A stretch of 64,000 nucleotides of DNA from Pseudofrankia saprophytica. GTDB taxonomy: Bacteria > Actinomycetota > Actinomycetes > Frankiales > Frankiaceae. Position numbers and translations under genes: made by a program. The stretch lies in NCBI RefSeq assembly GCF_000235425.2, contig NZ_KI912266.1:3353671-3417670 (forward strand). The letters run 5' to 3'. The notes beneath the pieces are model-generated. The model ran no database searches, was not told the origin of the DNA, and saw only the letters and a program-made list of their open reading frames with translations. Below, one piece after another: positions 1 through 10,609 of the stretch (the stretch's first letter is position 1; each line of letters opens with the position of its first letter).

Positions 1-303
1 GAACGGGTTGATTCCCTGCGCCAGCGCCTCCGGGTTCTGGTGGACCAGCAGGTCCAGGCCATTCTCGGCGACAAACCGGTCCCGGAAGGCGTACATGGCC
101 TGGAACTTCCACGTCGTGTCGACGTGCAGCAACGGGAACGGCGGCTTCGACGGGTAGAACGCCTTCATCGCCAGATGCAGCATCACCGCGCTGTCTTTGC
201 CCACCGAATACAGCATCACCGGCCGCTCGGACTCGGAGACGGCCTCCCGGAAGATCTGGATGCTCTCGGCCTCCAGACGCTGCAGGTGCGTTAGATGGCT
301 CAT
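1..303 (-). CDS. cysD: Sulfate adenylyltransferase subunit 2 (CysD), 5' part only
   Basis: The first 101 residues are visible; the gene runs off the left edge. The opening [15 protein letters not shown], the PP-loop motif SVGKDS (residues 33-38) and the segment HVDTTWKF (60-67) are characteristic of CysD, the small subunit of ATP sulfurylase. CysD makes adenosine 5'-phosphosulfate from ATP and sulfate together with the GTPase CysN. The ATG at 303 gives the standard CysD N-terminus. It lies 73 bp downstream of the carboxymuconolactone-decarboxylase-like gene on the same strand, with a hairpin between. It may therefore be read through from, or separately controlled beside, the operon containing a sulfotransferase. 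cysN would be expected beyond the window edge, but this cannot be seen. Confidence 0.93.
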
Positions 304-323
304 GGCGCATACCTGTTCTCTCT

Positions 324-340
324 CCGCGTGAACCACGCGG
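324..340 (-). terminator. Perfect 7-bp hairpin between the CMD-like gene and cysD
   Basis: CCGCGTG-AAC-CACGCGG forms a perfect stem with a 3-nt loop in the 73-bp gap. There is no T-run on either strand. It could attenuate or terminate transcription from the upstream operon before cysD, or stabilise an mRNA end. Confidence 0.35.
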
Positions 341-376
341 TGCGCGCTCGACGCCACGGTTCTCGCATTGCTGACA

Positions 377-1135
377 TCAGCCGCTCTTCGCTGCCCACGC
401 GGATTCGGCGGCGTCGTTCAGAGCCTCGCCCTTCGCGAACCCGTAGTAGACGGAGAACTGGAGCACGATCTCGTCCATCTCTTCCTTGGTGAGATCGCCG
501 GAATGCAGGGCCGAGGAGACGTGGGTGCGCAGGGGTGTAGGCGAGTCATCGAGGGCGACACACGCTACGGTGATGATCCGCCGCTCTCGGCGGGTGAGGC
601 CGGGGCGCTGCCAGACATGACCGAAGACGAAGTTCAGGATGCCCGCGTGACGGTAGGGCGAGGTGGGCGGCGGCGCCTGGGTGAGGTTGACGTCGACGAA
701 CTCCCGCACGCCCTCCTCCAGCCGCTTGTCCCAGTCGTTCTCCCCGAGCGTCTCGTTCGACAGAACGGGCCACGGCTCCGGCTCCCGGCCGTTCTCGCGG
801 GCGATCCGGGCCGACTGCTGGGCGATGACCATCTCGAGATGGGACGCCTTGGGCCAACCGCAGTAGACCGCGAAGTGCAGGACGAACTCGAGCATCGTCT
901 CGACGTCGAGGTCACCACTGTTCAGCGCGGCATAGACCTGGTCATCGATGGGCCCCGGAGAATCCGCGGCGGCGACGCAGGTCAGCGCCACCCACCGCCG
1001 GTCACGCCTGCTGAGCCCCGGCCGGGACCACACCTCGCCGAACACGAAGTCCCGGGTGGCGGCCTCGTAGGGAGTCGTGGCCAGCGCCGGTTCCCGGGTC
1101 ATCACCTCGCGGTAGGTCTGGTCCGCGTCGCCCAT
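377..1135 (-). CDS. Tandem carboxymuconolactone decarboxylase-like (CMD) protein
   Basis: This 252-residue protein contains two similar halves. FGEVW (32-36) with [11 protein letters not shown] (87-97) is repeated as FGHVW (161-165) with [12 protein letters not shown] (217-228). The all-helical CMD/AhpD fold uses these motifs. The CxxC redox pair of AhpD peroxidases is absent, so a decarboxylase/lactonase-like or non-redox role is more likely. An AGGAG ribosome site precedes the ATG at 1135. It is the last gene of the overlapping minus-strand operon, 35 nt after the dehydrogenase gene. The substrate is unknown; two-domain CMD proteins are often linked to aromatic or steroid breakdown clusters. 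Confidence 0.8.
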
Positions 1136-1170
1136 GTCGGGATCTCCTGCCCTCGTGTGGTGGTCGGCGG

Positions 1171-2205
1171 TCAGCTCAGCCGGAGCGCGACGCGTACCGA
1201 GTCGCGGCCGGGAGTGGACCGGGTCAGGAGCGCGAAGGCGTCCTCGAACTTCTCCAGCGGGAACGAGTCGCCGAGCAGCTCGGCGGTCGGCACCTTGCCC
1301 GCGTTGATGAGCGCCACGGCGCCCGCGGCGTCCAGGCCGGCGCCAGGGTGCAGCGTGATGCGCCGGGTCGGGATCCAGTCGCTGTGGAAGCCTTCGAGCG
1401 GACGGTCCTTCATCCCGGCGATGACGACATGGCCGCCCTTGCGGACGAGGTCCATGGCCAGATTCACCGTCACCGGGTTACCGGCCGCGGCGTCGATGAC
1501 CACGTCGGCCATCTGGCCGCCGGTGATCTCGCGGACTCGCCCGACGGGGTCGGCGGCCTCGACGTCGATGGTGTGGTCGGCGCCGATGCGGCGCGCGCAG
1601 TCCAGCCGGAACCGGTCCCTGGCCGTCCCAGTGACGATGACGCTGGCCGCGCCGGCCGCCTTCGCCGCGACGATCGTGGCCATGCCCATGTGCCCGGGCC
1701 CCTCGATGACGACGACGTCACCGCTCTTCACCGGCGCGACCCAGGTGACCGCGCAGCTCAGCGGCTCGAAGACGGTGAGCTGGTCGGCCGGGACGTCGTC
1801 GCGCAGCTTGTAGACCATCGACCCGGGTAGCAGCTCCAGGTGCTCGGCGAAACCGCCGTAGAGCCCGGAGCCCTCGTCGACGGAGAAGTCGTGCCCATAG
1901 ATGCGATGCCCCTGCGGGGTGAACACGATGTCCCAGACCGCGACCCGGTCGCCCTCGTCGACGCCCCACTTCTCGGCGGCCGCCGGGTCGATCTTCTCGA
2001 TACGCCCGACGATCTCGTGGCCCGCGATGGAGGGGAACTCGCCGCCCCACGAGGTGTGCACGTGGCCGCGGAAGTGGTCGATGTCGCTGTGGCACAGCCC
2101 GGTGGCCTCGACGCGCAGGACGGCGCCGCCGGGCTGTGGGTCGGGCACCGGGAGGTCGCGCAGCTCCCAGGTCTCGTCGCCGTTGAAAACGATCGCCCGC
2201 GTCAT
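1171..2205 (-). CDS. Zinc-type medium-chain alcohol dehydrogenase/reductase
   Basis: The 344-residue protein has the MDR layout. The catalytic-zinc ligands appear as LCHSD (Cys38) and GHE (His63, Glu64), with a third candidate in EPLSCAV (Glu147 or Cys151). The nucleotide-binding glycine motif is GPGHMG (169-174). The four-cysteine lobe that binds structural zinc in classical alcohol dehydrogenases is missing: residues 90-110 contain no cysteine. It probably oxidises or reduces an alcohol/aldehyde intermediate with NAD(P). Its ATG overlaps the stop codon of the upstream isomerase gene (ATGA), which implies translational coupling. The substrate cannot be read from the sequence. Confidence 0.9.
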   Translation of the reverse strand: MTRAIVFNGDETWELRDLPVPDPQPGGAVLRVEATGLCHSDIDHFRGHVHTSWGGEFPSIAGHEIVGRIEKIDPAAAEKWGVDEGDRVAVWDIVFTPQGHRIYGHDFSVDEGSGLYGGFAEHLELLPGSMVYKLRDDVPADQLTVFEPLSCAVTWVAPVKSGDVVVIEGPGHMGMATIVAAKAAGAASVIVTGTARDRFRLDCARRIGADHTIDVEAADPVGRVREITGGQMADVVIDAAAGNPVTVNLAMDLVRKGGHVVIAGMKDRPLEGFHSDWIPTRRITLHPGAGLDAAGAVALINAGKVPTAELLGDSFPLEKFEDAFALLTRSTPGRDSVRVALRLS

Positions 2206-3008
2206 GGCAGCACCTTCTCCAGGAATGTGTTCGCCCGGTCGACGGCGCGACGGGTCGCGGAGTCGAGGCCCTCGGACTCGACCGCCGGCCCGACGAGCTC
2301 GAGCTCGAAGAGGCCGGTGTAGCCGGTCTCGAGGACCGCGTTCAGAAACGTCTCGACGGGCATGTCGCCGTCGCCCGGCACGACCCGGGTCCCGGTCGGC
2401 AGTGGTCCGCGGTCGTGGGCGAGGACGTCGCAGAGCTGGGCGACCGCGAGGCGGTCGCCCACCCGGTGGATGGCGGCGGCCAGGTCGGGCTCACGCCAGC
2501 AGTTGCCGAGATCGACGATGAGCGCGAGGCCGGTGCGGTCGGCGACCTCGGCGGCCTCGCCCAGGGTGTGCACGAACGAGCGGTTCCTGCGCTGCGTCGG
2601 TTCGATCGCGAGCCGGACGCCCTGGGATGCCGCATGGGCGACGCAGGGCGCGGCCGCGGCGGCGAGCGCGTCAGTGAGCTCGTCGAACGACCGGCCAGGT
2701 CCAGCACCGGGAGTGATGTAAACGCATCCGCCGCGCAGCGCCGCGAGGTCGATGGCCTGGTTCACCTCCTCACGGGTCGCCTCCCAGGTCTCGGGCGCGC
2801 CGAGGTCGAACTGGTCGGCGATGAGGGTGGTGAGGCGCAGCGACCGAGCGGCGAGAGCGCTGATCGCCTCGTCGCGTCCGTGGGCGCTGAGCTTGGCGTC
2901 AAGCACGCCCACGTGGTGCAGGTCGAGGGAGTCCCACAGGACCAGTTCCTCGGCGAACGTCCACGGGTAGGTGCACATCTCGCTCACGGAGAGCCGCGGA
3001 TGCGTCAC
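2202..3008 (-). CDS. Sugar phosphate isomerase/epimerase-like TIM-barrel protein (AP endonuclease 2 family)
   Basis: The start is taken as GTG at 3008, which overlaps the stop of the metallo-hydrolase gene (GTGA) and gives 268 residues. The frame stays open further upstream, but that extension is arginine-rich shadow sequence. Strand ends typical of the xylose-isomerase-like barrel are seen: IEPT (Glu136), VDLGN (Asp166), AQLCD (Gln191) and FELELVG (Glu235). These would supply divalent metal ligands. Members isomerise or epimerise sugars, inositols or other hydroxy-ketones. It is coupled by overlap on both sides, so it acts in the same pathway as the dehydrogenase and hydrolase. Confidence 0.85.
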   Translation of the reverse strand: MTHPRLSVSEMCTYPWTFAEELVLWDSLDLHHVGVLDAKLSAHGRDEAISALAARSLRLTTLIADQFDLGAPETWEATREEVNQAIDLAALRGGCVYITPGAGPGRSFDELTDALAAAAAPCVAHAASQGVRLAIEPTQRRNRSFVHTLGEAAEVADRTGLALIVDLGNCWREPDLAAAIHRVGDRLAVAQLCDVLAHDRGPLPTGTRVVPGDGDMPVETFLNAVLETGYTGLFELELVGPAVESEGLDSATRRAVDRANTFLEKVLP

Positions 3009-4240
3009 GACAGCTCCGCCCGGATGTCGCGGATCTCGGCTTCGAGCCAGCGGACCTCGCTGAAGTTCTCCCGCCCGCTGCGTGCGAGCAGCAGCTCGTG
3101 TGCTTCTAGCTTCACCCGCAGGGCCTCCATGTCCTTGGGTTCCTGCGACAGAACGATCTCGGCGAAATGCAGGGCCTGCAGTGCCCGTCCGGCTGCCAGG
3201 TGCGCCTCCGCCCGGTCGAGCAGTGGGGCGGTGCCGCCGGCGAGGTCGACGAGCTCGTCCCAGATCGCCGAGGGGGGCACGTCGTAGAGCTCGGTGGTCG
3301 ATTCGTAGCGGAACCAGCCGGTGTGTTCCTCCCAGATCGCCCGCACGATCCACGGGACCTTCCCGTGCCCCTGGGGAATGTCGAGCGCGGGGGGAAGGGT
3401 GATCTGGCCCATCAGCGTCCACAGGTCGACGCCGGCGTTCATGCCCTCGATCGTCCGGTCACGTACGTAGGCGGTCGCGTCGCGCATCTGGGTCAGCCGC
3501 GTCCGAATGTTCTCGGCTCCCCGAATCGGCTCGCCATGGCCGGTGACCAACAACTCCGGGCCCAGCCCGATGACCCGGTCGACGGAGTGGAGGTAGGCGA
3601 TGGCGCTGCGGATCTTGTCGCCGCGGACCGTGTACAGGTTCGGGATGTGACCGAACAGGGGTCCGAAGAGATTCCCGGTGAACAGCGTGCGCTCGTCGGG
3701 GAGCCAGACGACCAGCGAGTCGGTCGTCTCCCCGCCCGGCGTCGAATACAGCTCGATCCGGCGGCCGCCGAGGCTGAAGGCGTGGCTGTCGAGGAACGTG
3801 GTCGTCAGGATCGGCTCGGGCGGCTGGTAGGTCGGGTCGACCCTGGTGATGTCACGGTTCCACAGCCGGCCGCTGCGCCGCGCGAAGAACGGCTGCAGCC
3901 GACGGAAGTACTCCCGGACGTCCGTGTGGTTCGCCTGGGCGATCGTCTCCACGCCGGGGGCGTCGAGCTGCGACCAGCCTCCGACGTGGTCCGGATGGCC
4001 CTGGGTGAACACGATGGCACGCACCGGGTTGGCGCTGACCGCGGCGAACCGCGTCCTGATCTGCTCCGCCTCGTTGTACATCCCGGTGTTGATCAGCAGG
4101 TCGCCGTCCGGGGTGGTGACGAGATAGCTGTTGGAGATGCCTTTCGAGGCGTAGATGCCGTCGCCGAGGGAGACGGCGTCCTGGACGCCTTCTCCTTCCC
4201 GGACGATGAGTGCGTTGAGCGGCTGCTGCTCGGAGCTCAC
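3005..4240 (-). CDS. Metallo-beta-lactamase-fold hydrolase, alkylsulfatase (SdsA1/BDS1)-like
   Basis: The 411 residues comprise an N-terminal MBL domain and a C-terminal helical region like the alkylsulfatase dimerisation domain (GWFRYESTTELYD, then a helical repeat over about 335-410). The metal motif is TQGHPDHVGG (79-88): Asp84 and His85 are present, but the first histidine of HxHxDH is Gln80. NLYTVRGD (201-208), a GGET segment near 160 and VTGHGEP (His235) match SdsA1-type alkylsulfatases better than lactamases. The family hydrolyses alkyl sulfate esters, releasing sulfate. Its position next to a sulfotransferase supports a sulfate-ester substrate. Gln80 may change metal binding, so activity is uncertain. 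It overlaps both neighbouring genes by 4 nt. Confidence 0.85.
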   Translation of the reverse strand: MSSEQQPLNALIVREGEGVQDAVSLGDGIYASKGISNSYLVTTPDGDLLINTGMYNEAEQIRTRFAAVSANPVRAIVFTQGHPDHVGGWSQLDAPGVETIAQANHTDVREYFRRLQPFFARRSGRLWNRDITRVDPTYQPPEPILTTTFLDSHAFSLGGRRIELYSTPGGETTDSLVVWLPDERTLFTGNLFGPLFGHIPNLYTVRGDKIRSAIAYLHSVDRVIGLGPELLVTGHGEPIRGAENIRTRLTQMRDATAYVRDRTIEGMNAGVDLWTLMGQITLPPALDIPQGHGKVPWIVRAIWEEHTGWFRYESTTELYDVPPSAIWDELVDLAGGTAPLLDRAEAHLAAGRALQALHFAEIVLSQEPKDMEALRVKLEAHELLLARSGRENFSEVRWLEAEIRDIRAELS

Positions 4241-5508
4241 CGGGCACGCTCCTTTCCCACCTCGGGCCGGATCTGGAAGGTGTCCGTGTAGAAGGCGAAC
4301 CGGGCGCGCAGCTCGTCCGCGTCAAGCCCGAAGTCGCCTTCCAGGTCGTAGACGACCCGGCCGCGCTTGCCGCGGGGATGTGACGCCAGGTAGTGCTCGA
4401 TGTCCGCACGGGTCTCGTCGGTGACCTCGAGGCCGGCGCGTTCCAGCACGCCGGCCGCGGCCTGGACGTCGTTGCCGACGATCTCGTCGAACCTCAGCTC
4501 GACGAGCTGGCCGGCGGGTACGACATGCCGATCGCGCAGGTAGCTGCGCAGCATCCGCTCAAGGCGGTCGACCCAGTAGGCGACGTGGGTGTCGATGTCG
4601 GGCCGCTTCTGGCTGGTCTTGAGCGCGAGGCCACGCATCGTCAGCAGCGACTGGATCGTGGCGACCGGGTCGCGGTGGATCATGACGACGGTGGCGTCCG
4701 GGTAGGTCGTCAGCAGTGGGACGAGTTGCTCGCTGTGCTGATTCGACTTCAGCATCCAGCGCTGGTCGCTGGGGAACTGCCAGGCGATCGCCCGCAGGAC
4801 GTCTTTCATGTAGCGGTAGTGCGGCGTCTGATCGTGGCTGAGGTAGTGGTCGCGGTAGCCGGGGACGTTGGCCATCCACTCCCACTGGTAGCTGGCGAAG
4901 TCGGGCACCTGCAGCTCGTTCTCGCCGCAGGCGTGGTCCGGCGAGTGCTCGTGCATCGCGGCGAAGATCTCGTTGCTGCTCAGTCGCTGCCACCGCGCGT
5001 CCGACCGTGACCAGCGGGGGTCCCTCCCGCCCGGTTCCGCCGTCTCGCCGACGCCCGGGGCCGGCTGTGCGGCCAGGTAGACCGGGAGGTGCCGAAGCCG
5101 CCGATCGGCGGCCAGCAGGTTCTCCAGATGGGTGCTGCCCGACCGGGGCAGCGCGATGACGTTGATCGGGCGCTCGATCGGCGCGCCGAGGCAGGCGGGG
5201 TGGTCGTCCCAGTAGCGCTGGATGAGCAGCCGGTTCGCCGCCGCCCGCACGCACTGGTCGACGAACGTGGCCTTGTGGGCCCGCCACACGTTGTCGTCGG
5301 CCTCGACCTCGGCCAGCAGCAGGCCGAGGCGCTGGGTGAAGTCCAGCGAGCCTAAGTCGTCCAGGCCGGTCTCCCGGCTGGCTCCCTCGAGCACCGCGTC
5401 GATGCTCATGTCGAGCGGCCGTGCCTCGTCGGCTTCCAGGGCGGCCCGCTCCGCCGGATCACGGGTGTCGTCGCGCATCCCTTCGACGCGCAGCACTTTT
5501 ACGGCCAT
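4237..5508 (-). CDS. Sulfotransferase family protein (PAPS-dependent)
   Basis: The 423-residue protein carries the 5'-phosphosulfate-binding loop LPRSGSTHL (120-128) and a 3'-phosphate-binding segment VVMIHRDPVATIQSL (274-288). WMLKSNQHSE (251-260) is the usual intervening strand. These are features of the bacterial Sulfotransfer_3-type family, which transfers sulfate from PAPS to hydroxyl groups of small molecules. It begins inside the 3' end of the SDR gene (10-nt overlap) and ends over the start of the metallo-hydrolase gene (4-nt overlap). The neighbouring cysD gene would help supply PAPS. The acceptor is not identifiable. Confidence 0.88.
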   Translation of the reverse strand: MAVKVLRVEGMRDDTRDPAERAALEADEARPLDMSIDAVLEGASRETGLDDLGSLDFTQRLGLLLAEVEADDNVWRAHKATFVDQCVRAAANRLLIQRYWDDHPACLGAPIERPINVIALPRSGSTHLENLLAADRRLRHLPVYLAAQPAPGVGETAEPGGRDPRWSRSDARWQRLSSNEIFAAMHEHSPDHACGENELQVPDFASYQWEWMANVPGYRDHYLSHDQTPHYRYMKDVLRAIAWQFPSDQRWMLKSNQHSEQLVPLLTTYPDATVVMIHRDPVATIQSLLTMRGLALKTSQKRPDIDTHVAYWVDRLERMLRSYLRDRHVVPAGQLVELRFDEIVGNDVQAAAGVLERAGLEVTDETRADIEHYLASHPRGKRGRVVYDLEGDFGLDADELRARFAFYTDTFQIRPEVGKERAR

Positions 5509-6305
5509 GGCGGCAGCTCCGTAACGTCGGTCTTTCCTGCGTTCGCCAACCAGCCGCCATCGATGACGACGAGGTCGCCGGTGTGGTAGCGCGACCAGTC
5601 GCTCATGAAATAGACGCCGATACCCTCGAAGTCCTCGGCTCTACCCGCCCGTCCCGAGGGGTTGTAGCGGCGGTTGCGGTCGAACAAGGGGCTGTCGACA
5701 GGGATCTGGACTGTCTCGCTCTCCGTGTATCCGGGGCACACGACGTTGCTGCGGATGCCGTAGCGGCCGGCCTCGACCGCGATGCCACGGGACATGGCCG
5801 CCATGGCGCCTTTGGACGCGTTGTAGTGCTGCATGCCGGGGCTGCCGGTCAGCGCGGAAAGGCTGGCGCAGAACAGCAGCGACCCGCCGGGGTCGCCGGC
5901 GTCGTGGCGCCGCTTCATGTGGCGCGCCCCCTCGCGCATGACGAAGAACGCGCCGTGCTGGTTGACCGCCAACAGGCTGTGCCAGGCGTCGCTCGTCATC
6001 TCCGGGAAGCTGCGCTCCCTGCGCATCAGGCCGGCGTTCGCGATGACGCCGTCGACCCGGCCCAGCTCCTCGACCACCTCGGCCATCGCCTCGACGACGC
6101 GAGCCTCGTCGGAGACGTCGACCTGCTGCGCAAGCACGCGGTGACCGAAGCCGGCCAACTCCTTGGCCGCATCGAGGTTCTTCTCCGCCCGTCGGCCCCA
6201 GATGACCACGTCACCACCGGCCCGGGCGACACCTCGGGCGAAGGCCAGACCGATCCCGGCGTTGCCACCACTGACCACGACCACACGGCCCGCTAAGTCG
6301 AACAT
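5499..6305 (-). CDS. Short-chain dehydrogenase/reductase (SDR)
   Basis: This is a classical SDR of 268 residues. The cofactor motif is GGNAGIG (13-19), NAG lies at 90-92, and the active site is YNASK (Tyr161, Lys165) preceded by a serine-rich strand around 148-150. It should oxidise or reduce a hydroxyl/keto group with NAD(P). It is the first gene of the minus-strand operon. The start codon lies only 7 bp from the palindrome at 6312-6323, so the transcript may be leaderless or have a very short leader under IclR control. No strong ribosome site is seen. Confidence 0.9.
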   Translation of the reverse strand: MFDLAGRVVVVSGGNAGIGLAFARGVARAGGDVVIWGRRAEKNLDAAKELAGFGHRVLAQQVDVSDEARVVEAMAEVVEELGRVDGVIANAGLMRRERSFPEMTSDAWHSLLAVNQHGAFFVMREGARHMKRRHDAGDPGGSLLFCASLSALTGSPGMQHYNASKGAMAAMSRGIAVEAGRYGIRSNVVCPGYTESETVQIPVDSPLFDRNRRYNPSGRAGRAEDFEGIGVYFMSDWSRYHTGDLVVIDGGWLANAGKTDVTELPPWP

Positions 6306-6311
6306 GGGACA

Positions 6312-6323
6312 TTGCTATAGCAA
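6312..6323. promoter_or_regulatory. Perfect 12-bp palindrome, candidate IclR operator
   Basis: TTGCTATAGCAA is exactly self-complementary and sits in an AT-rich patch between the divergent SDR and IclR genes. It abuts the SDR start codon, so a bound regulator would block that promoter. Assignment to the IclR protein is by position only. Confidence 0.55.
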
Positions 6324-6388
6324 AATGCTTCTTGCAGTCAAGCGTCTTCTGTGGCCCGGCGCGGGTGGCCGTCCGCTACCGTGTCTGC

Positions 6389-7321
6389 ATGGCCCGGCCC
6401 GCGCCCGCGTCCGCCCGCGCGACGGACATCGTTGCCTTCCTCACCGCGCACCCGTCTCGTGGCTTCACCATCAGCGAGCTCGTCACACACCTCGGGATGA
6501 ACATCGCCTCGGCCCACGCGACCCTGGCCGTGCTGTGCGACTGCGGGTTTCTCGTCCGGGATCCGGTGCACCGCACCTACGTTCTGGGCCCGGCGCTGGC
6601 GGCTACCGGCTTCGCCGCACTCGAGCAGCATCCGGCGGTTGGTGTCGCCATAGAGCAGGCCGAGGCGCTCGCGAGCGAGCTCGACGCGGAGGTCGGTGTT
6701 TCGGCCGTCGCGGGCAGGGACGTCATCTTCCTCGCTCGTCGCGGACCAGTGCCCCGCGCACATGTTCTCGGCTACCCGGGAGACCGCACGCCGATGCTCG
6801 CCCCGATCGGCGCGGTGTTCATGGCCTGGGCTGACGACGAAACGATCATGGGCTGGCTGGAGCGGGCCGCGCTGACAGCACCGCTGCGCGAGTTCTACCG
6901 TCGGAATCTCGAGGAGATCCGCGACCGAGGCTTCAGCGTCCCCCTGCCCCCCATAGCCGCACCCGCGATGATCGACGCCGTCGCGAAGCTGCGCGACGAG
7001 CCGACCGATGCGCAGGCCGAGCACCACCTCACCGAGGTGCTCGCGAAGACCGACGAGATGCTGCTGTCCTTCGCCGGCCTCACCCATGCGGACGAGATCG
7101 TCGTGAAGACCGTCGCGGCGCCGATCTTCGACTCAATCGGCCGGGTGCTGCTCTCGTTGAGCATCACCGGGCCGGACCACCCGATCCGGGTCGAGGACGT
7201 CCTCGAACTGGGCCGCCGCCTGGTCCAGTCCGCCGCCGTCGCGACCCACCAGGCCCGCGGCCGGGTTCCTGGCCGCGACCTGCCACCGACCGGAACGGCC
7301 CACGCGGGCCGACAGCGCTGA
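6389..7321 (+). CDS. IclR-type transcriptional regulator
   Basis: The ATG at 6389 is preferred over a TTG at 6332, giving 310 residues. The N-terminus forms a winged helix-turn-helix (about residues 5-65; FTISELVTHLGMNIASAHAT is the recognition region). The rest resembles an IclR effector domain with GYPGDRTPML and APIGAVFMAWA segments. IclR proteins usually control divergent catabolic operons in response to a pathway intermediate. The gene is divergent from the SDR-to-CMD operon, with a perfect palindrome between them. No ribosome site stands out. Confidence 0.85.
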   Translation: MARPAPASARATDIVAFLTAHPSRGFTISELVTHLGMNIASAHATLAVLCDCGFLVRDPVHRTYVLGPALAATGFAALEQHPAVGVAIEQAEALASELDAEVGVSAVAGRDVIFLARRGPVPRAHVLGYPGDRTPMLAPIGAVFMAWADDETIMGWLERAALTAPLREFYRRNLEEIRDRGFSVPLPPIAAPAMIDAVAKLRDEPTDAQAEHHLTEVLAKTDEMLLSFAGLTHADEIVVKTVAAPIFDSIGRVLLSLSITGPDHPIRVEDVLELGRRLVQSAAVATHQARGRVPGRDLPPTGTAHAGRQR

Positions 7322-7386: not shown

Positions 7387-8229
7387 TCAGCCCAGAGCCA
7401 CCCGGTGCGCGCCGCTGTAGATGTTCATCGTTCGGCCCCGGACGAAGCCGGCGAGCGTCATCCCGGACTCCTCAGCCAGGTCCACCGCCAGCGTCGACGG
7501 TGCCGACACTGCCGCCAGGGCGGGCACACCGGCCATCACCGCCTTCTGGACCAGCTCGAACGACGCCCGCCCGCTGACTACCAGCACCCGCGCCCGCAGC
7601 GGCACCAGGCCGCTCCGGGCCGCCCAGCCGATCACCTTGTCGACGGCGTTGTGCCGGCCAACGTCCTCGCGGACGGCGAGGATCGTGCCCTCGGCGTCGG
7701 CCAGGGCGGCGGCGTGCAGCCCGCCGGTCGTGGCGAACAGGCGCTGGGCGCGGCGCAGCCGGTCGGGCAGTTCCGCCAGCACCTCGGCGGGGACGCGCAG
7801 CGGGTCGTCGGCCACCGGGTGACGGGTGCGCACCCGCACGGCGTCGATGCTTGCCTTGCCGCAGAGCCCGCAGGAGCTGGTGGTGTAGAAGTTCCGGGCC
7901 GCGGCGGGGTCGGGCGCGGGCACGCCGGGCGCGAGGGCCACGTCCAGCACGTTGTAGGTGGGCCGCCCGTCGGCGTCGGTCGCGCCCTCGGTGCCCACGC
8001 AGTAGCGCATGCTCGCGATGTCCGACCCCGCGGCGATCAGCCCCTCGCCGAGCAGGAAGCCCATCGCGAGGTCCATGTCGTCGCCCGGGGTCCGCATGGT
8101 CACGGCCAGGGACCTGCCGCCAACCCGGATCTCCAGGGGCTCCTCGCCCACGAGTGTGTCCGGCCGGACCGTCGGCTCGGCGCCCAGCGTCACCTTCATC
8201 ACCCTGCGCCGTGCGGTTGCTCGACTCAT
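7387..8229 (-). CDS. fdhD: Formate dehydrogenase accessory sulfurtransferase FdhD
   Basis: The 280 residues contain EEPLEIRVGG (29-38), MRTPGDDMDLAMGFL (45-59) and the essential SCGLCGK motif (Cys120, Cys123). FdhD relays sulfur from a cysteine desulfurase to the molybdenum cofactor of formate dehydrogenases. The start is the ATG at 8229. It follows the FdhF-like oxidoreductase gene by 49 bp on the same strand, the usual pairing. It is convergent with the IclR gene across a 65-bp gap. Confidence 0.95.
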   Translation of the reverse strand: MSRATARRRVMKVTLGAEPTVRPDTLVGEEPLEIRVGGRSLAVTMRTPGDDMDLAMGFLLGEGLIAAGSDIASMRYCVGTEGATDADGRPTYNVLDVALAPGVPAPDPAAARNFYTTSSCGLCGKASIDAVRVRTRHPVADDPLRVPAEVLAELPDRLRRAQRLFATTGGLHAAALADAEGTILAVREDVGRHNAVDKVIGWAARSGLVPLRARVLVVSGRASFELVQKAVMAGVPALAAVSAPSTLAVDLAEESGMTLAGFVRGRTMNIYSGAHRVALG

Positions 8230-8278
8230 GAGGCCACTGTTCCTTGTCGGTACCGGTAGACGCCCACGCGGCGTGGTC

Positions 8279-10600
8279 TCAGGCGCCGACCGGACGGGCC
8301 TCCAGGCGGATGACCAACGACTTCGACGTCGGGGTGTTGCTGCGCCGTGCGGTGCTGTCCAGCGGCACGAGCACGTTGGTCTCGGGGAAGTAGGCGGCGG
8401 CGCAACCCCGGGCGGTCGGGTACGCCACCACCCGGAAGTTCTCCGCCCGGCGGTCGACCCCGTCGGTCCAGACGCCGACGAGGTCGACGTGGCTGCCGTC
8501 GGCGATCCCGAGGGCGGCGAGGTCGTCGGGGTTCACGAGCACCACGTGCCGGCCATGGCGGACCCCGCGGTATCGGTCGTCGAGCCCGTAGATCGTGGTG
8601 TTGTACTGGTCGTGGGACCGGATGGTCTGCAGCAGCAGGTGGCCGTGGGGCACCCGGAGCACCTCGCAGAGGTTGACGGTCATCGCCGCGCGGCCGGTGG
8701 GAGTGTGGAAGGTGCGGCTGTCGCGCGGCGGGTGCGGCAGCAGGAAGCCGCCGGGTTCGGCGAGCCGGTTGTCGTAGTCGGCGAAGCCGGGGACGACGTT
8801 CGCGATGTGGCCGCGGATACGCCGGTAGTCGGCGGCGAGCCCGTCCCAGTCGACCGCCGGCGCGGACGCGCGGGCGCCGAGCGTCGCCTGGGCCAGCCCG
8901 CAGACGATGGCGACCTCCGAGCGCAGGTCGGGCCCGGCCGGGTCCAGCGCGCCGCGGGAGGCGTGCACCATTCCCATCGAGTCCTCGACGCTCACGACCT
9001 GCGCGACCCCGCCGCGCAGGTCGACCTCCGTCCGGCCGAGGGTCGGCAGGATGAGCGCGCGTTCGCCGGTGACCGCGTGCGAGCGGTTCAGCGTGGTCGA
9101 CACCTGCACGGTCAGCCTGCAGGCGCGCATCGCGGCCTCGGTGACGGCGGAGTCGGGGGTCGCCGCGACGAAGTTGCCGCCCATCCCCATGAAGACCTTC
9201 ACCCGGCCGTCGCGCATGGCGCGGATCGTGTCGACGGTGTCGAGGCCGTCATGGCGGGGCGGGGCGAAGCCGAACTCGGCGCCGAGCGCGTCGAGGAAGC
9301 GCGCCGGCATCTTCTCCCAGATGCCCATCGTGCGGTCGCCCTGCACGTTGGAGTGGCCGCGCACCGGGCAGACCCCGGCTCCGGGCCGGCCGATGTTGCC
9401 GCGCAGCAGCAGGAAGTTGACCACCTCCTGGATCGTGGCCACCGAGTTGGCGTGCTGGGTCAGACCCATCGCCCAGCAGACGACGACCTTCTCGGCGGCC
9501 AGGATCCGCTCGGCCAGTTCGTCGATCTCGGCGCCGGTCAGGCCGGTGGCCGTGGCGATGTCGTCGTCGGTGAGGTGGGCGCGCACGTGGGCGGCGAAGG
9601 CGTCGAACCCGGTGGTGTGGTCGGCGAGGAACGCCTGGTCGAGCACGGTGCCGGGGGCGGCGTCCTCAGCGTCGAGCAGCCGGCGCGAGAGCGCCTGGAA
9701 CAGCGCCATGTCTCCGTTGAGGCGGATCTGCAGGTACTGGTCGGCGAGAGCGGTGCCCCGGCCGACCAGGCCCTGGGCGTTCTGCGGGTTGCGGAACCGG
9801 CGCAGGGACGCCTCGGGCAGCGGGTTGACGGCCACGACGCTGCCGCCGGCCCGCTTGACCCGCTCCAGCGAGGTCAGCATCCGGGGATGGTTGGTGCCGG
9901 GATTCTGGCCGCAGACGAGCACCAGGTCGGCCTGTTCCAGGTCCTCGAGGGTGACCGAGCCCTTGCCGATGCCGATCGTCGCGTTCAGGGCCGCGCCGGA
10001 GGACTCGTGGCACATGTTCGAGCAGTCGGGCAGGTTGTTCGTCCCGAACGCCCGGGCGAACAACTGGTAGAGGAACGCGGCCTCGTTGCTGGTGCGACCG
10101 GAGGTGTAGAAGGCGGCCTCGTCCGGGCTGTCGAGGGCGTCCAGCTCGGCGGCGATGACACCGAAGGCCTCGTCCCAGGTCACGGGCGTGTAGTGGTCGG
10201 CGCCCGGTGCCCGGTACATCGGCTCGGTCAGGCGCCCCTGGCCACCGAGCCAGTACCCGGAGCGGCCGGCGAGGTCGGCCAGCGCATGGGTGGCGAAGAA
10301 CTCGCGGGTCACCCGGCGACGGGTCGCCTCCTCGGCGACGGCCTTGGCGCCGTTCTCGCAGAACTCGGTCGCGGACCGGTCCTCGGGCCGGGGGTCGGGC
10401 CAGGCGCACCCCGGGCAGTCGAAGCCGTGGTCCTGGTTGAGCAGGCGCAGGGTGGTGACGCTACGGCGCACCCCCATCTGCCGCCGGGCCTGGGCGAGGG
10501 CATGACCGACCCCGGGCAGCCCGGCCGCCGAGCTGGCGGGCGCCGTCACCCGCAGCGCGACCTCGTCGTCGCGCCTGTCGGTCGAATGGCCACGAAACAT
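8279..10600 (-). CDS. FdhF/YdeP-family molybdopterin oxidoreductase
   Basis: This is a 773-residue bis-MGD enzyme of the 'oxidoreductase alpha (molybdopterin) subunit' family. An N-terminal CPGCAWPDP motif with a further Cys near 80 replaces the usual ferredoxin-like cluster motif. SNMCHESSG marks the molybdenum domain, and VNPDDLAALGIADG lies in the C-terminal dinucleotide-binding domain. No selenocysteine signal is seen. The ATG at 10600 has a GAGAGAGG ribosome site; a GTG nine bases upstream is too close to that site. It is paired with fdhD. The YdeP group is formate-dehydrogenase-like, but its substrate is poorly defined. Confidence 0.92.
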   Translation of the reverse strand: MFRGHSTDRRDDEVALRVTAPASSAAGLPGVGHALAQARRQMGVRRSVTTLRLLNQDHGFDCPGCAWPDPRPEDRSATEFCENGAKAVAEEATRRRVTREFFATHALADLAGRSGYWLGGQGRLTEPMYRAPGADHYTPVTWDEAFGVIAAELDALDSPDEAAFYTSGRTSNEAAFLYQLFARAFGTNNLPDCSNMCHESSGAALNATIGIGKGSVTLEDLEQADLVLVCGQNPGTNHPRMLTSLERVKRAGGSVVAVNPLPEASLRRFRNPQNAQGLVGRGTALADQYLQIRLNGDMALFQALSRRLLDAEDAAPGTVLDQAFLADHTTGFDAFAAHVRAHLTDDDIATATGLTGAEIDELAERILAAEKVVVCWAMGLTQHANSVATIQEVVNFLLLRGNIGRPGAGVCPVRGHSNVQGDRTMGIWEKMPARFLDALGAEFGFAPPRHDGLDTVDTIRAMRDGRVKVFMGMGGNFVAATPDSAVTEAAMRACRLTVQVSTTLNRSHAVTGERALILPTLGRTEVDLRGGVAQVVSVEDSMGMVHASRGALDPAGPDLRSEVAIVCGLAQATLGARASAPAVDWDGLAADYRRIRGHIANVVPGFADYDNRLAEPGGFLLPHPPRDSRTFHTPTGRAAMTVNLCEVLRVPHGHLLLQTIRSHDQYNTTIYGLDDRYRGVRHGRHVVLVNPDDLAALGIADGSHVDLVGVWTDGVDRRAENFRVVAYPTARGCAAAYFPETNVLVPLDSTARRSNTPTSKSLVIRLEARPVGA

Positions 10601-10609
10601 GGCAGTCAC

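Follow-up and report, generated by a model that had tools for sequence, protein, structure and literature searches.

What does a bacterium gain by placing a sulfotransferase, a hydrolase of alkylsulfatase fold and the enzymes of sulfate activation in a single run of genes? The question is raised by a locus of Pseudofrankia saprophytica (Frankiaceae; contig NZ_KI912266.1 of assembly GCF_000235425.2) that occupies the left end of a 64,000-nucleotide stretch, positions 3,353,671 to 3,417,670; this whole stretch is referred to as the window, and plain coordinates refer to it, whereas positions in the whole 9.98 Mb genome carry the prefix G000:C1. On balance, and with little more than even confidence, we favour the view that the locus is a ligand-controlled operon which processes a hydroxylated compound through an intracellular sulfate ester, with the sulfotransferase (ST) and then the metallo-hydrolase (MBL) acting on one substrate.

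The first-pass annotation had described six minus-strand genes that overlap or nearly touch, with cysD 73 bp further on, and both the coordinates and the Pfam families bear this out, as all six lie in the expected place. In order of transcription they encode an SDR dehydrogenase (5499..6305; adh_short_C2, 2e-50; in the same position in five other Frankiaceae genomes); a sulfotransferase of the type that uses 3'-phosphoadenosine 5'-phosphosulfate (PAPS) (4237..5508; Sulfotransfer_3, 6e-33; PDB 2z6v, 1e-29); MBL, a metallo-hydrolase of alkylsulfatase fold with a QxHxDH metal site (3005..4240; Lactamase_B and Alkyl_sulf_dimr); a xylose-isomerase-like TIM barrel protein of isomerase/epimerase type, here TIM (2202..3008; AP_endonuc_2, 7e-28; PDB 3qc0, 5e-14); a zinc-type MDR dehydrogenase (1171..2205; ADH_N/ADH_zinc_N, 1e-21 for ADH_zinc_N; PDB 2dfv, 2e-27); and a protein with two CMD stretches recognized by Pfam (377..1135). 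The SDR and ST genes overlap by 10 bp and the ST/MBL, MBL/TIM and TIM/MDR pairs by 4 bp each; 35 bp separate MDR from CMD, and cysD starts at 303, its first 101 codons (1..303, minus strand; CysD family match) lying in the window before the gene runs on to the left. There, on the same strand, sequence matches identify cysNC, cysQ and a gene for a HIBADH-like dehydrogenase (G000:C1:3349606-3353973); with starts taken from the analysis's own gene caller, cysD/cysNC overlap by 1 bp and cysNC/cysQ and cysQ/HIBADH by 4 bp each, and ten minus-strand genes thus lie almost end to end. The whole CysD (541.8 bits) and CysNC (1065.9 bits) both score above cut-off, and CysNC is a fusion of CysN and adenosine 5'-phosphosulfate kinase parts, so it should make PAPS; CysQ matches a phosphatase of 3'-phosphoadenosine 5'-phosphate (PAP) of solved structure (PDB 5djf) at 2.3e-72. 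As predicted from the sequences, PAPS synthesis, PAPS use and PAP disposal are adjacent within one ten-gene run.

Comparison of gene order in related genomes had been proposed as a check on the operon, and the set, cysD and ST included, recurs: the order SDR-ST-MBL-TIM-MDR-(CMD)-cysD-cysNC was found in five other Frankiaceae genomes, those of Pseudofrankia sp. BMG5.36 (G032, locus L051), 'Frankia nepalensis' CN7 (G030, L052), Frankia sp. AgB1.9 (G033, L053), Parafrankia soli NRRL B-16219 (G020, L054) and G029 (L049). CMD lies between MDR and cysD only in the window's genome, G032 and G030, and is missing from that place in L049, L053 and L054; cysQ directly follows cysNC in L048, L049, L051, L052 and L054, and L053 stops inside cysNC. 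In nine loci (L052, L074, L076, L079, L081, L082, L084, L085 and L087) cysD is predicted to begin before the gene ahead of it has ended, and this recurrence, together with the shared order in five genomes, places the grouping beyond chance. An alternative order, MBL-ST-SDR-cysD-cysNC, occurs in G029 (L050) and G033 (L055), where MBL is 60% identical to that of the window and ST and SDR only about 30%.

The window's genome also holds a second operon head some 15 kb away on the opposite strand (G000:C1:3337679-3341517), consisting of IclR, a broken SDR, ST and MBL (82% identical), beside which no cysD was called. Its SDR gene carries an internal deletion (G000:C1:3338674-3338983; L047:12675-12984), and the ST and MBL frames stay open. 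Pseudofrankia sp. BMG5.36, too, has a second copy of the operon (L086:3082-5111), in which the called cysD almost reaches cysQ with no intact cysNC between them, so PAPS synthesis looks damaged there.

To what extent sulfate activation goes with sulfotransferases was surveyed over 33 Frankiaceae cysD loci of at least 81% identity to the window's CysD over the matched part, which were scanned with an ST profile. A same-strand ST lies upstream of cysD in 27 of the 30 informative loci (27 of 33 overall), including all three cysD genes of the window's genome. Three loci were set aside because the available upstream sequence was too short (L086, 3.1 kb; L089, 0.65 kb; L093, 28 bp); L087, with 2.8 kb upstream and an ST, and L100, which holds part of cysD only, were kept. 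Small cysD fragments (G015 C278 and C403, G017 C185 and C110, and G032 C110:3002) were left out, and three of these have an ST up to 1.3 kb upstream. None of three control cysD loci of the ordinary Frankia kind has an ST upstream; the controls (G001, G003 and G026) are three of 19 genomes with cysD of about 50% identity. The juxtaposition of ST, sulfatase-like fold and sulfate activation pointed out in the first-pass annotation is thus a real link, to which cysQ can be added. Partner genes of the ST-cysD clusters vary, with an enoyl-CoA hydratase recognized by Pfam and P450-like and amidohydrolase-like genes recognized by eye, and because STs and partner genes differ between clusters, several sulfation clusters seem each to have received a copy of the PAPS synthesis genes. 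With the 25 best plasmid copies, whose genera we take to be alphaproteobacterial, CysD shares 76-79% identity, and with Frankia CysD about 51%; its greater closeness to the plasmid copies suggests an origin outside Frankiaceae, in a comparison confined to plasmids and Frankiaceae.

Individual clusters showed further features. Another ST-cysD-cysNC-cysQ cluster of the window's genome (L073:8727-16465) has an undecaprenyl diphosphate synthase-like gene in its vicinity. In one common type of sulfation cluster, the gene for a protein of 345-349 residues stands between ST and cysD, as seen at L074:8636-9673, where the copy has no Pfam match, and in the same place in L076, L079, L081, L082, L084 and L087. 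At L077:3901-5574, a gene upstream of an ST-cysD cluster encodes a ChsH2-like plus thiolase-like protein, a hint of steroid-like or CoA-bound substrates.

The association of ST with MBL extends further. A pattern-based scan of named genomes gave 16 loci, and when 393 genomes of the class were scanned with a profile, MBL was detected in 19, six of them Frankiaceae and 13 of one other genus, probably Mycobacterium by its likeness to named mycobacterial loci. The distinct MBL genes number 37, and for 34 of them an ST lies no more than 1 kb away. For this count L057-L060, L068 and L071 were dropped as repeats of L051-L055 and L101, L086 was dropped as a 120-residue end piece at a contig edge, and the broken or cut MBL genes of L101 and L072 were counted once each. 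Gene order is variable (SDR-ST-MBL, ST-MBL-SDR, MBL-SDR-ST, MBL-ST-SDR, or ST divergent from MBL), and no SDR was called beside the ST-MBL pair in L137 and L140. A 4.2-kb contig of a metagenome-assembled genome (L061) carries ST-MBL-TIM-MDR as in the window and ends before any cysD could show; with this exception, neither TIM nor CMD was observed to accompany the pair regularly beyond Frankiaceae.

In a FastTree phylogeny of 61 STs, rooted at the midpoint and with STs chosen partly via their MBL, the 34 MBL-linked STs form one clade, of two subclades, as against 27 others, and the ST of the window falls in subclade A. When the 393 genomes were scored with a profile built from 23 MBL-linked STs, taking the four best candidates per genome, the 27 best matches (at least 535 bits) all adjoin an MBL gene and the next match scores 417 bits; 18 of the 27 are themselves rows of the profile and nine are not. 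The Sulfotransfer_3 domain (PF13469) of the window's ST is full length (1-216 of 216), and the motifs PRxGx[TS] and HRDP...S, which we take to be the PAPS-binding motifs, are kept in 34 of 34 MBL-linked STs. By these comparisons the ST-MBL pair is the wider unit, and its link to cysD is seen only in Frankiaceae.

By sequence, the nearest solved relatives of MBL are SdsA1 (1e-19), SdsAP, YjcS and Pisa1. A structural model built from a deeper alignment (mean predicted local distance difference test score 86, replacing a first model at 70) superimposes on Pisa1 (2yhe) with a Z score of 31.4 over 395 of 411 residues at 2.7 Å, and on SdsA1 and SdsAP with Z scores of 30.4 and 30.2; as the three are about tied, the fold cannot tell a secondary from a primary alkylsulfatase. 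All nine top structural matches belong to the alkylsulfatase group, followed by chlorothalonil dehalogenase (Z 26.1, 277 residues), and Foldseek likewise ranks the group first. All 32 aligned MBL homologues without exception carry Q80, H82, D84, H85, E171, N190 and H235; the same columns read H, H, D, H, E, E and H in all nine full-length alkylsulfatase relatives of the same bacterial family (574-704 residues, identified as such by their motif and size). E171, the acidic third ligand of the histidine site, is kept in all 32 homologues, as are N201, R206 and R211, and E171, R206 and R211 are found in 9 of 9 of the alkylsulfatase relatives as well. Arg206 (SdsA1 Arg312) presumably has a role in sulfate binding. 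Inspection of MBL by eye shows no evident export signal, and the protein is therefore expected in the cytoplasm together with ST.

A promoter-like sequence, TTGACT - 16 bp - TATAGC (6314..6341, minus strand), precedes the SDR gene; TATAGC ends 8 bp before the start codon, and the SDR transcript would be nearly leaderless. TTGAC and TATAGC are present in 8 of 8 aligned operon upstream regions, with a spacer of 16 bp in the window and of 15 in the second copy of the same genome. Over the second promoter element, the -10, lies a perfect palindrome, TTGCTATAGCAA (6312..6323), a candidate operator; it is exact in seven of the eight upstream regions with one change in the eighth, and the palindrome of the second operon copy in the window's genome carries one change. 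With up to two mismatches it matches the window once, against 0.08 matches expected from shuffles. A 14-base form with one mismatch allowed finds three sites in the whole genome, namely both operon heads and 3344268, all within 22 kb (control pattern, one); over six genomes it gives 20 matches against 4 for the control, with certain sites counted on both strands and certain matches in G020, G030 and G032 lying on other contigs. A second exact TTGCTATAGCAA occurs in Parafrankia soli (L060:20290-20301) between an IclR gene and a CMD gene, which suggests a small regulon. Divergent from the operon is a gene for an IclR-type regulator (6389..7321, plus strand; HTH_IclR and IclR_C), a candidate ligand-controlled switch, a homologue of which adjoins the operon in L049, L051, L053 and L101.

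Transcription of cysD from its own promoter only had been named in advance as evidence against the operon. A scan of 303-377 detected nothing resembling a promoter or terminator, although this null result is weak evidence because the consensus threshold also misses the SDR promoter; the palindrome was not found before cysD in the window, and folding of the RNA between CMD and cysD showed no signal (z-score 0.03). A single transcript is favoured by the overlap of the cysD start with the preceding gene in the nine related loci. The gene set is probably switched on as one unit from one conserved promoter.

We reasoned that these genes could act in the following sequence. An inducer would act on the IclR regulator, whereupon the operon would be transcribed; CysD and CysNC would make PAPS, ST would sulfate the hydroxyl group of an alcohol, and CysQ would clear the by-product PAP. 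MBL would then act on the sulfate ester and expel sulfate, the hydroxyl having become a leaving group and either water or a neighbouring group being the nucleophile. SDR and MDR would oxidise before and after, taking electrons from the new alcohol, and the TIM and CMD proteins would serve a later, pathway-specific step. We infer that a single substrate serves ST and MBL, that MBL acts on the ester and that IclR is the switch; a catabolic pathway is inferred from two features, the dehydrogenase neighbours and the IclR regulator. Of the original proposal that a substrate is sulfated, processed and desulfated, the sulfated intermediate is likely, given the conserved ST, MBL, PAPS synthesis and cysQ, whereas a plain reversal in one compartment would be futile.

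Several observations weigh against this interpretation. If sulfate is put on and taken off within a single compartment, ATP is spent to no purpose unless what emerges is a different compound from the alcohol that entered. MBL lacks the C-terminal domain of about 100 residues of the alkylsulfatases, which we take to be SCP2-like: the match ends at residue 531 of the 639 of Pisa1, and no further Pfam domain was found in the 411-residue protein. Two of the seven zinc ligands are changed in 32 of 32 homologues, Gln replacing the first His (SdsA1 H169) and Asn the bridging Glu (SdsA1 E299, SdsAP Glu322); phmmer sets the latter column one off, at Gly189, and the conclusion is the same. The ligand roles are those given for type III alkylsulfatases by structure comparison in PMC5426288. 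With two ligands changed and the C-terminal domain absent, MBL cannot be filed as a type III alkylsulfatase, and the label "SdsA1-like, sulfatase-like" holds for the fold alone; for the same reasons hydrolysis of a sulfate ester is not assured, and likeness of fold does not establish function. The distribution of the genes is also uneven. Of the eight genomes of the genus, three (G028, G031 and G034) lack MBL, three informative cysD loci have no ST upstream (L075, L088 and L094), and for three of the 37 MBL genes (L063, L065 and L069) there is no ST in the neighbourhood, those of L065 and L069 belonging to Mycobacterium montefiorense and Mycobacterium sp. 1100029.7, at 63-64% identity and with no ST in the fetched flanks. 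Relatives of cysD, cysNC and cysQ were not found in 26 loci outside the named Frankiaceae (L061 being too short). Orthologous operons without cysD or ST had been put forward as evidence against a sulfation operon; those without cysD do exist, and MBL without ST is rare.

The cost in ATP leads us to think that MBL changes the carbon, through inversion or another nucleophile, because plain addition and removal of sulfate would merely burn ATP. By analogy with Pisa1, which attacks carbon with inversion (PMC3920027, PMC7785958), ST and MBL might invert a secondary alcohol in a manner resembling a Mitsunobu reaction, ST acting with retention, MBL directing water onto the carbon and SDR oxidising only the inverted alcohol. 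We regard this specific version as unlikely; it would explain why PAPS is spent on a sulfate that a neighbour removes in the same cytoplasm.

The altered metal site and the three MBL genes without ST would sit more easily with a pathway in which the sulfate stays, ST making a sulfated end product or a detoxified conjugate and MBL hydrolysing some other bond, be it of a lactone, ester, thioester or ring ketone, at an earlier or later step. TIM and MDR are weakly similar to IolO and IolM of the inositol pathway (far below cut-off), a pathway that includes a ring-opening hydrolase; a sugar or inositol pathway was not adopted on these weak matches and is kept within this alternative. We hold a retained sulfate to be somewhat unlikely, as the nearly full-length fold match is to alkylsulfatases, E171, N201 and the two arginines are kept as described above, and the pairing of MBL with one ST clade is close to exclusive in the sample. 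Loss of sulfate without net hydrolysis, where MBL or a neighbour would turn the ester into an alkene or ring, appears very unlikely: the altered metal site may handle water differently, and aziridine enzymes are reported to close a ring after sulfation (PMC12559475), but no lyase relative is among the structural matches listed and the characterised relatives of the MBL fold hydrolyse (structural matches; PMC3920027).

The cluster could also be an ordinary one, in which cysDNC are just the sulfate assimilation set of the genome, lying next to a catabolic operon, and the compounds handled by ST and by MBL have nothing to do with each other. Sat was not found in the window's genome, where the only cysD genes found are the three ST-linked copies; its one other PAPS_reduct match is a cysH-like gene with a sulfite-reductase-like gene (G000:C1:467182; L106:8120-10717; names by eye), at which no cysD or cysN was called. 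As no other ATP sulfurylase was found, the three ST-linked cysD-cysNC sets probably also feed cysteine synthesis, which weakens any label of a "dedicated" PAPS synthase. Yet all three cysD copies follow an ST, an outcome unlikely by chance with 10 STs in 9.98 Mb, cysQ is included in the run, and ST and MBL pair also where cysDNC is not nearby; we therefore consider this explanation quite improbable, and retain the processing of an alcohol through its sulfate ester as the preferred reading.

Among known systems, MBL resembles the type III alkylsulfatases Pisa1, SdsA1 and SdsAP in its MBL and dimerisation domains, in five of seven zinc-ligand positions and in two Arg residues, and differs from them in its Gln/Asn ligands, its missing C-terminal domain and its ST partner. 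Gln at the first metal-motif position is compatible with two bound zinc ions in the metallo-beta-lactamases LRA-12 and GOB-18, according to PMC5531557; these have His at the third site-1 ligand and act on other substrates, so that MBL shares with them only the metal-site idea. For the sulfation half, the closest parallel is rhizobial NodPQ, which supplies PAPS to a sulfotransferase (PMC6192434): in NodP-NodQ-NodH and in rhizobial lipopolysaccharide sulfation, too, CysD and a CysN-CysC fusion go with an ST. Here, however, the ST is of another kind, dehydrogenases and a hydrolase take the place of signal or surface polysaccharide genes, and the operon holds no nod genes. Frankia sp. NRRL B-16219 (G020, Parafrankia soli) is reported with nodH (PMC5584510); a role in Nod-factor synthesis, considered for this reason and for the likeness to NodPQ, was rejected, as no nodABC families are among the operon genes. 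In aziridine formation, as here, sulfate makes a hydroxyl a leaving group; that reaction is an intramolecular ring closure in natural product synthesis, and the part of PMC12559475 at hand mentions no MBL partner.

No description of an ST-MBL-cysDNCQ gene set was found among the matches listed from the literature searched, most subscription papers falling outside its coverage. By analogy, the sulfation half would work like NodPQ-NodH, and the combination appears to be a variation on known kinds, in which novel chemistry is a genuine possibility. If the proposal is true, bacterial sulfation, beyond its use as a tag in solubility, signalling or surface sugars, would be a means of activating alcohols for metabolism, with its own PAPS supply and clean-up. 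The comparison also defines an ST clade that, in Frankiaceae and mycobacteria, is closely partnered by a hydrolase, giving poorly annotated enzymes a testable function, and it offers an enzyme of alkylsulfatase fold with a natural Gln/Asn metal site for studies of mechanism and for the production of chiral alcohols.

Beyond the regulator gene, an FdhD-like gene adjoins a molybdopterin oxidoreductase gene at 7387-10609 of the window, apparently separate from the operon.

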